From Methanobacteriaceae archaeon (GTDB lineage: Archaea; Methanobacteriota; Methanobacteria; Methanobacteriales; Methanobacteriaceae), in assembly GCA_029219465.1 (NCBI GenBank), contig JAQXTL010000007.1:1-64000 (forward strand): a DNA stretch of 64,000 bases, in the 5' to 3' direction. The translations under genes and the position numbers were made by a program. Below are positions 50,229 through 62,113 of this stretch, one piece after another. How positions within the stretch are numbered: position 1 is the stretch's first letter; every line of letters starts with the position of its first letter. Under the pieces are notes generated by a model. It was not told the origin of the DNA, searched no databases, and was given only the letters and a program-made list of their open reading frames with translations.

Positions 50229-51050
50229 TTAAAATTTATTTGGAACTTTCAAGTGATCAGGAAGCGGTTTAATACGTGCAGGTGTTCCAATAGCCAAATA
50301 GAATGGTGGAACAGAGTGTATTACAATAGCTCCTGCAGCAACAATAGCTCCTTCACCTACTTCAACATTTGATAAAAATGTAGTATTACCACCAATTGAA
50401 GCACCACGTCTGATTTTAGGTCCTTGAAGTTCATAATTAATTCTTACAGGATATTTATCATTAGTAAAACAGGCACAAGGCCCGATAAATACATTATCCT
50501 CAATTACAGAATTAGTTGGAATATAAACATTAGATTGAATACTAACATCATTTCCAATAATTACATCCCCTTCGATTACAGTATTGGTTCCAATTAAAAC
50601 ATCATCTCCAATATTGGTATTTTCACGAATAACAACATTGTGTCCTGTTCTAAAATTATCTCCAATTACAACATCATTATAGATAATTGAATTTGACCTG
50701 ATTGTGTAGTTGTTACCAATTACAGGAGGTCTTGAATTTGGAGAATATTCAACACCAAACTGAATATTTTGATCAGCAGGGAAATTTAATTCAGGTTTTG
50801 AATAATCATGCTGGATAGATTCTCTTTCATAAACAGGTCTTTCATAGACAACTTCATCTTTTTGTGCATAAAAGTCCTCTTCAGGATATCTTTGTTGTCT
50901 AGAGGGTTGTTTATAAAATTCATCCTGATTTTGAACACTGTAAGATTGTCTATCCTCATATACATGATAAGGATTCTCCCTAACTTGAACATAAGGTTTT
51001 TCCCTACTTTTTGAGTGTTTATCATCAAGAGTTTGTGAAAATCTAACCAT
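50229..51050 (-). CDS. Hexapeptide-repeat (left-handed beta-helix) acyltransferase with disordered Tyr/Gln-rich N-terminus
   Basis: 273 residues. Residues about 1-100 are polar and low-complexity, rich in Tyr, Glu, Arg and Gln ([24 protein letters not shown]), and look disordered. About 110-260 are hexapeptide repeats ([36 protein letters not shown]) forming a left-handed beta-helix, ending in [10 protein letters not shown]. This resembles PglD/WlbB-type N-acetyltransferases that modify nucleotide-linked sugars for glycans. The His acting as base is not assigned. It lies upstream of the three rubredoxin genes on the same strand, perhaps co-transcribed. Confidence 0.82.
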
Positions 51051-51160
51051 ATTATCAAACCTTCATTTAAATAAAATAAATCTATTAATGATTTAAGATA
51101 TGTTTTTAATTAGTATATATACTAACTGGTTAAAAATTTGATGAATTTTATAATTATAGA

Positions 51161-51200
51161 TAAAAAAATAAAAAAAAGTAGATGATTATTAAATCATCTA
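51161..51200 (-). terminator. Strong hairpin and U-tract terminator after the chimeric pseudogene
   Basis: TAGATGATT and AATCATCTA form a perfect 9-bp stem around a four-base loop at the stop codon, followed on the minus strand by ACTTTTTTTTATTTTTTT. It is among the clearest terminators in the window. Confidence 0.85.
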
Positions 51201-51776
51201 TCTAACTTTCAAAGTTGTTTTAACAGAAGTTTTGCAGTACAGTGCTTTTACTGTGTATGTTTTTCCTATTTTAAGCTTTTTAATAATAGTTTTGCCTAAT
51301 GTTTTCTTAGCAATACCCTTAGAGTCAGTTTTAACTTTGTAAGTTTTTCCCATAAATTTAAAGGTTATTACTTTACCTTTTACCATTTTACCGTTGATTT
51401 TAAGACTAGCTTTTAAGGTAAATGATTTTGCAGTTTTCTTAACAGTTAAAGAATAAACTTTAAGCACCTGTTTTACAGTAACTGTATTTTTCACCTTTTT
51501 AGCGTTAAATTCCGTGACAATTGAGTATTTATTTGGAATAAGATTAATTTTTAATTTAGCTATTCCGTTTGCATCTGTTTTAATGGTATATGTTTTTCCA
51601 GCTATTGTAAATTTAACAGTCTCGCCAACAACTGCATGACCGTCTGCACTTAAAACTTGAGCAGTAAAGTAAGATCCACCAAGATAATCAACAGAAATAT
51701 CTTTAGTTATGATTTTAGAATCATCTGCTAAAGTATACACTTTAAGACAAACTGTTTTATTTTCTAAGGTAATATC
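51198..51776 (-). pseudogene. Adhesin-like C-terminal fragment (two Ig-like domains) fused to an HsdR remnant
   Basis: Encodes about 190 residues of Ig-like sequence: GGSYFTAQVLSADGHAVVGETVKFTIAGKTYTIKTDANGIAKLKI, then a second domain with KVITFKFMGKTYKVKTDSKGIAKKTL, ending in basic KTSVKTTLKVR. Such Big/carboxypeptidase-regulatory-like domains are found at the C-end of Methanobrevibacter adhesin-like proteins. Here there is no signal peptide and no N-terminal adhesin. Instead the frame is joined upstream to type I restriction sequence. It is probably a dead fragment created by illegitimate recombination, though a short fusion frame (51198-51863, from a TTG) remains open. Confidence 0.72.
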
Positions 51777-52098
51777 AATCTGATTAGTCACCTGAAAGAT
51801 GTTTTTACACCAATCTTTCTGATTTAGAAACTTAATATAAAAAGAATCATTTTCCACGTTCAATAAAAAAATGGTCCCTTAACTTTTTTGCTTTATCAAA
51901 AATAGAACCCTGTTCTAAAAATAATACTACTTTTTCAAATTCTTCATCAGTTAATTGGCATTTATTTAGTTTATCCAATTGAGTTCTAAAATTAGATAAT
52001 AATTCACTTTCATTTCTAATTTTAACTCTTTCATATCCATTTTCAGATAATCTTTTAATAAGATTATTTTCCAATACTGCTTCACTTTGAGATGACAT
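51777..52098 (-). pseudogene. N-terminal remnant of type I restriction enzyme subunit R (HsdR), frameshifted
   Basis: From the ATG at 52098 it reads SSQSEAVLENNLIKRLSENGYE...LLSNFRTQLDKLNKCQLTDEEFEKVVLFLEQGSIFDKAKKLRD, the characteristic opening of HsdR. It continues, after a one-base shift near 51855, with NDSFYIKFLNQKDWCKNIFQVTNQI, again HsdR. Removing one G there restores a continuous frame. Only about 110 of over 900 HsdR residues remain; the nuclease, helicase and C-terminal parts are gone, replaced by adhesin Ig-like sequence. No HsdM or HsdS lies in the window. Confidence 0.8.
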
Positions 52099-52267
52099 AC
52101 TACTACCTTTCATATCTAAAATAACAACATCAATATTAAATTGTTTTAATAATAATTTTATTTCAAGTAATATATTAAATTTAATAAATTAACATCATTA
52201 CCTCATCTTATTATCAAAACTAATATTTAACTCAAAATATAAACAATTAAACAGAAGGAATTAATTT

Positions 52268-53137
52268 ATGGTTCAATATTGTAGGAAATGTGGAAAACAG
52301 CTTGACGATAATGTTAAGTTTTGTGATGCATGCGGATTTGAACTTGACGGAGAACTTCCAAAAGAAAATAGATCAGTTCCAGTTCAAACAAAAACCGATA
52401 AAAGTGCATTTCTTAGTAAATTACCTTTAGTTTTAGCTATTATTTCCACAATTGTATGTGTTGAAGGATTAACCACCCCTATTTTAATGGGTGAAGAAGC
52501 TATTATGGCTGCAATAGTTCTTGGAATTATTGGAGGAGTAGTTGGTATTGTTTTAATGGAGAGATTTGATGAGCCTTTAGTTGCTGCAATGGAGTTTATT
52601 GTAACTGGAGGATTAATTTATATTTTTATTGCAAGATTTGGTGATATCTCTCTTATATTGTTTATAATTACAGCTGTTGCTACATTATACTTTAAAGGAC
52701 ATCATGCAAATAACAAAAAATTGTTTGCTGTGCCAATAGCTACTATTGTATTGATATTTGTTCTTATAATGGCTGGTGGAGCATTATATCAGTTTAGCGC
52801 TGTAAATTCAGTAAGTGTTGGAAATATAAGTCAAAACATAACTGATGACGGTTATGGATATTATAATGGTGAAATAAACGGTGATATTAGGGTAGACAGT
52901 AATTTTGATTACTTGTCTGTTGATGTTGATTTTTATGACAGTACTGGAAAAATTATTGACTCAACAATAGGCTGGAATGAATTGCATCCTGAAAGTGGAA
53001 AAACCTATAAGATTTCAGCAATGTATTTTGGTAAAACACAGCCTGTAAAAGCAGAACTTAAAGTTGTTGACTCTGCTTCATCAACAACTCCATTATACAA
53101 TGAAACTATCACTATTTTAACATCTTCTGGAGTTTAA
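52268..53137 (+). CDS. Zinc-ribbon membrane protein with extracytoplasmic C-terminal domain
   Basis: 289 residues. An N-terminal zinc ribbon (YCRKCGKQLDDNVKFCDACG, residues about 4-23) is followed by a linker and about five membrane helices (about 48-180). The C-terminal domain of about 100 residues, with beta-sandwich character, follows (SQNITDDGYGYYNGEINGDI... to ETITIL), probably outside the cell. This layout is common in methanogen membrane proteins, and the C-terminal domain resembles the FxLYD-like comparing/adhesive fold. Function unknown. AGAAGGAATT precedes the ATG. Single gene. Confidence 0.75.
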   Translation: MVQYCRKCGKQLDDNVKFCDACGFELDGELPKENRSVPVQTKTDKSAFLSKLPLVLAIISTIVCVEGLTTPILMGEEAIMAAIVLGIIGGVVGIVLMERFDEPLVAAMEFIVTGGLIYIFIARFGDISLILFIITAVATLYFKGHHANNKKLFAVPIATIVLIFVLIMAGGALYQFSAVNSVSVGNISQNITDDGYGYYNGEINGDIRVDSNFDYLSVDVDFYDSTGKIIDSTIGWNELHPESGKTYKISAMYFGKTQPVKAELKVVDSASSTTPLYNETITILTSSGV

Positions 53138-59997: not shown

Positions 59998-62113
59998 TTA
60001 TGGAGTCTTTGGTGCAAAAGTTATTACTGAAACAGATGAATGAACACTTAATTTGTCAATTGCTGAATATGACCTAACACTTCCAGTATCTGCAAAATTT
60101 CCAGTTCTCACAGATGGAGTTTTACTTACAGCATTAATACCATCCACATATTGTCCTAAATAACCACCACTAATTCCACCAGCTACACCCATTGCAACTG
60201 ATCCTGCGATTAAAACTGAACAGAGTTTTAGTCTATTGTAATTAGCGTCATATGTTTTTGAAATAATAAATGATGAAGCAAGACTTCCAATTACAGCACC
60301 ACTCGCTCCACCGGCAATAGCCCCAATTAATGGATTTGCTGTTAAAAAACCAGTGACAAAGCCTATAAGAAAACTTCCACCAACAGATGATACACAAACA
60401 ACAGTGTATTCTGTTCCACTTAAACTCTTAGCAAAGCAAACACCACCAGGATGATTTGATTTTGTAATATTTTTACCATCTATTATTAAAATTCCACCAT
60501 CACCAACACATATATCATTTCCATTACTATATCCATTATTATTTGAAAATGTACAGTTATTGGTTAGTAATATACCCTGGCTGAATATTGCACCACCGTT
60601 TTTTGCGTAGTTTCCAATAAATGAACAGTTGTTACAGATAACTTCACCAGTGTTTAGGATTGCTCCTCCCCAGTCTCTTTTAAACCAGTAATCCATTTTA
60701 TTGTCTTTAAAAGTTACATTGTTAAAAATACATTTTCCTGCATTGTTTTCAACAGCACTGTTAAATCCACAAATGACTAAATTGGACGCCATTAATATTT
60801 TCTTATCAATTTTTGCCCAGTGCTCTTCATTTCTATTTTTAAATGAACCTTTGATTGTTGAGTTATGACCATTGATATTGATTATATCCACACTTAAATC
60901 ATTTGGAGATATTGTTTTTGTAGATTTAAAATCTAATTGTCTTAAAAACTCAACATTTAGAGCCAATAAATATTTAATTTTATTTAAAGAACCAGTATCA
61001 TTAGTTAAAACGCCCTCAACTGATTTTAAGTCATTTTTATAGTTGTGAGTAAAAACATTTTCATAGTCTTTAGTGCTGTTTACAGTTTTGTTAATGATAA
61101 ACTGATATTCATTTGAGAAGTGATTATTGAATAATTCTTTATAAATGTCATCACAGCTTGTTAAATTCTTAAAATGGTAGTCTTTTAGGTAAGTAATTCC
61201 ATTTTTTAAGTATCTGGTTGTGGATAATACGTATTCATTGCCTTTAATTGTAGCATAATATGAAATGTTATTTTCTTTATTTACACCACCTAATGTTAAA
61301 CTTCTATAAATCATAGGCACCAAATCAACTGTTTGATTAGCTATTGGGGAATTTGCAACTTTAAATAAATTTTTTGTATCTATTTTAGTATAATTTCCAT
61401 CAATAACATGAACATTTCCTGATGATATAAACCCACAGTCAACAAGTGTGATGTTTTTATGCTTTCTGTCAATGTATATTTCTTCGTTACTTAATCTTGA
61501 TTCACTTTAGAAAATAACAGTTTCTTAGTGTTGTATTTTCACCACTTAAGTAAATTGATCCTCAAACTCCCAATGCATGAGTATTTATGAATTTATTGTA
61601 TTGGAGTGTTTCATTTGAACCACTCCATGTAATTGCACCACCGTGAAATGCCTTGGTTGAATCAAATCTGCAATCACGAAGGTGTCCGTTCTCACCAATC
61701 CATGTAATTGGGCTTTTCATATCACTTCTATTAGTAGTGTAATTTTGTTTATTATGGTAAAAATCAAAGTTAATAATAGTTACATTGTTTCCTGTTACTT
61801 TAAAAATCCCAAATTCCTTTTTAGAATCTTTAACAATTATAGAATGACAATTTCCATCAATTGTTACATTATCTTTTGTAATTTCAATTACATTTCCACT
61901 TGATGGATTATCTGTTTTATTAAAAACATAATCATGGTTTAATTTATAGTAATCTCCATGGTTAAGCTTGGATATTTCATTATTTAACTCATCAAAAGTT
62001 CCATCATGACTAACAGTGCTGTTTTTTAAATCAACTGCACTTACACTATTTACACCGACTAAAAAAAGACCTACTGCTGCTATGAGCAGAATAATTTTTA
62101 ATTTATCTCTCAT
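59998..62113 (-). pseudogene. Adhesin-like beta-helix surface protein, broken by a stop and a frameshift
   Basis: From the ATG at 62113: signal peptide (KIILLIAAVGLFLVGVNSVSA), then a right-handed beta-helix region with NVTIDGNCHSI, FHGGAITWSG and NKFINTHA. An in-frame TGA (61562-61564) interrupts it; the same frame continues GSIYLSGENTTLRNC until a second stop at 61502-61504. A one-base shift at about 61505 then opens a frame that runs to 59998 with more repeats (GGAILNTGEVICNNCSFIGNYAKNGGAIF) and a C-terminal glycine-zipper-like membrane region (ANPLIGAIAGGASGAVIGSLASS). Together about 705 codons of one gene with two lesions. Both halves keep good reading frames, so the breakage is recent or part of sequence variation. 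Confidence 0.85.

Follow-up and report, generated by a model that had tools for sequence, protein, structure and literature searches.

A probable deletion scar joining the start of a type I restriction gene to the end of an adhesin gene in a Methanobacteriaceae archaeon

Introduction

On the minus strand of the window, which is the whole stretch of 64,000 nucleotides of Methanobacteriaceae DNA that was analysed, sequence of a type I restriction subunit passes directly into sequence of a surface adhesin. This locus raises the question of how parts of two unrelated genes came to be joined and whether their fusion still has a function. Our analysis indicates that the region is in all likelihood a deletion scar, in which the 5′ end of an hsdR gene has been fused to the 3′ end of an adhesin gene. 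The genome that contains the window (G000) is a draft assembly of 21 contigs and 1.66 Mb with a completeness of 99.6%.

Results

The HsdR Part

The first part of the fusion (minus strand, 52098–51777) covers ~106 codons from the start of an EcoR124I-like type I HsdR (PF04313, HSDR_N). Its start is the ATG at 52098, and a second in-frame ATG is located at 52113. The open reading frame 52113–51847 (minus strand, 88 aa) was identified as a type I HsdR N-terminus, and 81–82 codons of it (51853–52098) align with the intact HsdR of the related genome G010 with 83% amino acid identity. Over the first 81 residues, the identity to the N-termini of the intact HsdR proteins of G010, G006 and G004 was 78–83%, and the matches of the HsdR half to the HsdR of relatives were far above chance (E from 1e-41 to 1e-38). 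The score against the Pfam family HSDR_N (E 6.5e-4, 20.1 bits) was below the cut-off of 25.1 bits, as expected because the domain is truncated.

The reading frame of this part is broken. Past 51855 it runs into a TGA at 51847, and the similarity to HsdR is picked up again in the next frame by NDSFYIKFLNQKDWCKNIFQVTNQI, a continuation of 25 codons (51777–51851, minus strand) that was delimited by alignment with G010, G004 and G006. The frameshift was placed approximately at 51848–51857. Thus, both the HsdR start and the one-base shift near 51855 proposed in the original prediction, which had been made from the sequence alone, were found.

Intact HsdR frames in G010, G006 and G004 span 910–937 aa (the intact HsdR of the G010 island counts 907 aa), and the relic keeps ~12% of such a protein. 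Unlike a type I HsdR, it has lost the nuclease motif, the SWI2/SNF2 ATPase and the EcoR124_C domain. According to the alignment to the EcoR124I HsdR, the nuclease motif would begin ~10 codons beyond the break, and this motif is known to hold the catalytic residues of the enzyme.

The Adhesin Part

The second part (51198–51776, minus strand) encodes the last 192 residues of an adhesin-like protein and includes its stop codon. It begins with ~15 residues from a lectin-like domain, which are followed by about two Ig-like domains. It lies in the open reading frame 51863–51198 (minus strand, 221 aa), which starts with ~25 HsdR codons and continues in frame into the adhesin sequence, without a stop for 192 codons. 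The part belongs with the papain/Lectin_like/Ig adhesin-like proteins of Methanobrevibacter (PF00112, PF18560, Big_1-like), and its closest full-length match is a paralog in the same genome, a 1026-aa frame (C-terminus at G000:C2:101410–101988; 74% amino acid and 78% DNA identity; E 4e-81 for the adhesin half, far above chance). The stop position is the same in both, and the 3′ flank of the relic (51165–51197, minus strand), a terminator-like hairpin with a T-run, aligns with the similar 3′ flank of the C2 paralog.

In the translated stretch of the C2 paralog, the Lectin_like domain (PF18560) occupies residues 383–515 and is followed by a Big_1-like Ig region; the Ig-like repeats of the adhesin C-terminus gave Big_1 and Ca_tandemer matches that were weak or sub-threshold but consistent. 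The break of the relic corresponds to residue 501, inside the end of the Lectin_like domain. The original prediction that adhesin sequence follows the HsdR residues NQI was therefore correct, but its Ig border was not, because the first ~15 residues still belong to the lectin-like domain. Relative to the 1026-aa frame, the relic is without ~80% of the protein; the papain domain and the larger portion of the lectin-like domain are among the lost parts. The fusion thus has neither the N-terminal secretion signal nor the binding or enzymatic region of such an adhesin, and HsdR sequence stands there instead.

Adhesins are encoded by a large family of paralogous genes. Papain/lectin-type matches were found only at C2, C16 and C7:82384, each with its own tail, and no orphan adhesin N-terminus was found elsewhere in the genome. 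Separately, a second broken adhesin-like gene was observed in the window (59998–62113, minus strand). Its N-terminal open reading frame (61562–62113) ends in a stop, more stops follow in that frame, and the coding sequence continues in a different one (59998–61323) with a Chlam_PMP match.

The Junction

The HsdR and adhesin parts have the same orientation, and both are cut exactly at one joint (51776–51777, minus strand). DNA homology to hsdR, as judged against the intact genes in G010 and G004, stops at 51777–51778, and homology to the C2 adhesin paralog begins at 51776. At the joint, the window reads CAGATTGATATTAC, the HsdR sequences read CAAATAAC or CAAATTAC and the adhesin reads AGAGATATTAC, which leaves at most 1 bp of microhomology. 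A probe of 121 bases spanning the junction was searched against 67 genomes of the genus. In other genomes it matched with bases 1–61 (HsdR) or 62–120 (adhesin), with the single exception of a match on the adhesin side that began at base 53. A match across the whole junction was found only in the window's own genome. The abrupt meeting of two unrelated families near 51777, as originally described, was thereby confirmed, and none of the 67 genomes carries the fusion as an intact gene. The exact junction had no match in viral contigs, and a search of plasmids with the whole region returned only distant hsdR matches in Cetobacterium.

A junction present in no second genome searched, in a draft of 21 contigs, could in principle have been produced by a false join during assembly. 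Such an error is highly improbable, because sequence is missing on both sides of the joint and the joint has no shared sequence; a common stretch of no more than 1 bp would not suffice for an assembler to merge two sequences. In addition, both sides lie correctly beside the right flanking genes, and the assembly nowhere contains the genes that a wrong join would have moved elsewhere. A search with the G010 protein revealed no other HsdR homolog and no remaining piece of hsdR in the genome, so that the PD-(D/E)XK nuclease motif and the SWI2/SNF2 motor missing from the relic do not occur on another HsdR fragment. No hsdM or other N6-methyltransferase was found above the Pfam cut-off, the only N6_Mtase match being sub-threshold in contrast to the clear HsdM of G010 and G004, and no GmrSD was found in the genome.

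The only HsdS-like match in the genome is located at G000:C21:28188–28646. As no HsdM was found above the cut-off, this gene may be an orphan or a part of another type of R-M system.

Genomic Context and Relatives

The fusion is located in a divergent intergenic region, or slot (51051–52267), between the gene of a hexapeptide-repeat transferase on the left (50229–51050, minus strand; Pfam Hexapep; present in 63 of the 67 genus genomes) and the gene of a zinc-ribbon protein on the right (52268–53137, plus strand; Pfam Zn_Ribbon_1; syntenic in G010 and G072). The closest named relatives carrying the transferase gene belong to Methanobrevibacter. Both edges of the slot are kept in the window. On the left, the upstream region of the transferase gene (51051–51130, minus strand) matches G072, where the slot is empty, at 93% identity and the left edge of the island in G010 at 85%. 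On the right, the former upstream (promoter) region of hsdR (52114–52267, minus strand) resembles the sequence between the zinc-ribbon gene and hsdR in G010 (~79% identity across ~100 bp).

An intact island of 11.6 kb lies between these flanking genes in G010. It carries an intact HsdR, most of which can be aligned with the EcoR124I HsdR, together with an hsdS-like gene, HsdM, additional HsdS genes or fragments, a phage-integrase-family recombinase and a GmrSD restriction gene. The flanking genes and the hsdR start region are the same as in the window. However, of hsdR only the initial ~320 bp are left in the window, and hsdM, hsdS, integrase and GmrSD are all lacking at the slot. In G072, whose transferase is the most similar, the flanking genes are 180 bp apart and the slot is empty. 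In G004, one contig carries hsdR and hsdM close to its end, and another has an integrase adjoining the transferase gene close to its start, an arrangement consistent with the same island split by assembly. In G006 and G088, adhesin-type genes are located upstream of the transferase gene and on its strand. The differing contents in these five genomes indicate that the slot is variable and has been occupied by a type I R-M island in this clade. The earlier proposals of a former type I R-M locus here and of deletion or illegitimate recombination as the cause gained support from this synteny, with the R-M island in the slot of G010 and the empty slot in G072.

Several side observations concern this slot and its islands. 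The slot (L107, L012/L015, L108, L125, L039, L120) varied strongly from one Methanobrevibacter genome to another and was found to be empty or to hold an R-M island, adhesins or other genes. The G010 island (L012 10623–19899 and L015 340–2010) combines several hsdS genes or fragments with the recombinase and has GmrSD at its end; the set of hsdS genes and the recombinase suggest specificity switching by recombination. In G006 (L013 13892–15721), hsdS-like frames lie in opposite orientations beside an integrase, as would fit an invertible hsdS locus.

No adhesin is present in the empty slot of G072, and the large adhesin family includes the C2 paralog, whose similarity extends into the 3′ flank. 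An adhesin fragment could accordingly have been copied or recombined from another adhesin locus into a decaying hsdR, replacing the rest of the island. This is unlikely, since about half of the synonymous sites differ from the closest paralog (ps 0.52, dS ~0.9) and the replacement would need two breakpoints, where one deletion suffices. The same divergence rules out recent copying from the C2 paralog.

Function and Selection

A functional HsdR–adhesin fusion is unlikely. The adhesin part is open and shares the frame of the second HsdR segment, and the pairwise dN/dS was 0.08–0.17, so one might suppose that the frameshift is a sequencing error or that the 221-aa downstream frame is expressed. 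There is very little probability that the fusion works in either way. The frame is broken at ~51855, the HsdR start of the fusion is hydrophilic and not signal-like, as judged by reading the sequence, the nuclease motif and the papain and lectin domains of the adhesin are missing, and no relative with the fusion was found among the genomes probed. The low pairwise dN/dS mostly reflects the time preceding the fusion. Without the nuclease, ATPase and C-terminal domains of HsdR and without the N-terminal region of the adhesin, the remnant is very probably non-functional, and the frameshift together with these domain losses means that no functional product is expected.

When one outgroup was used, ten non-synonymous and ten synonymous changes were assigned to the window branch, versus 2 and 11 to that of G010 (Fisher p 0.07). 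This excess of amino acid change was not significant with that outgroup or with another (p 1.0), and relaxed selection is therefore not demonstrated. The 192 open codons of the adhesin part count against a deletion pseudogene; their length suggests that the decay is recent.

Discussion

The most probable account of the locus is a deletion, which is the expected cause since sequence is missing on both sides of a single joint. The ancestor would have carried a G010-like type I R-M island between the zinc-ribbon and transferase genes and, downstream of the island and on the same strand, a papain/lectin/Ig adhesin gene adjoining the transferase gene, whose presence there we infer. A single illegitimate deletion with little or no microhomology would then have removed everything from HsdR codon ~106 into the lectin-like domain of the adhesin. 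Such an event would have placed the 5′ end of hsdR, preceded by its upstream region, directly before the 3′ end of the adhesin gene and its terminator-like flank, and the frameshift in the hsdR part may have arisen after the deletion or along with it. The pre-deletion state is a reconstruction and not an observation, because no relative was found that has the R-M island and this type of adhesin together in the slot.

A broader interpretation is that the slot beside the hexapeptide-transferase gene is a recurrent site of exchange between defence islands and surface adhesins in Methanobrevibacter and that the scar is a snapshot of one such swap. We regard this as a tentative and rather doubtful idea.

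The HsdR–adhesin scar is very probably a dead gene fragment and an instance of ordinary genome decay at a variable slot, and deletion between unrelated genes is an ordinary mechanism. Annotation pipelines could wrongly call one of its pieces a restriction subunit and the other an adhesin. For the biology of the organism, a gut methanogen with a small genome, the scar marks a variable genomic slot and records the loss of an R-M defence.
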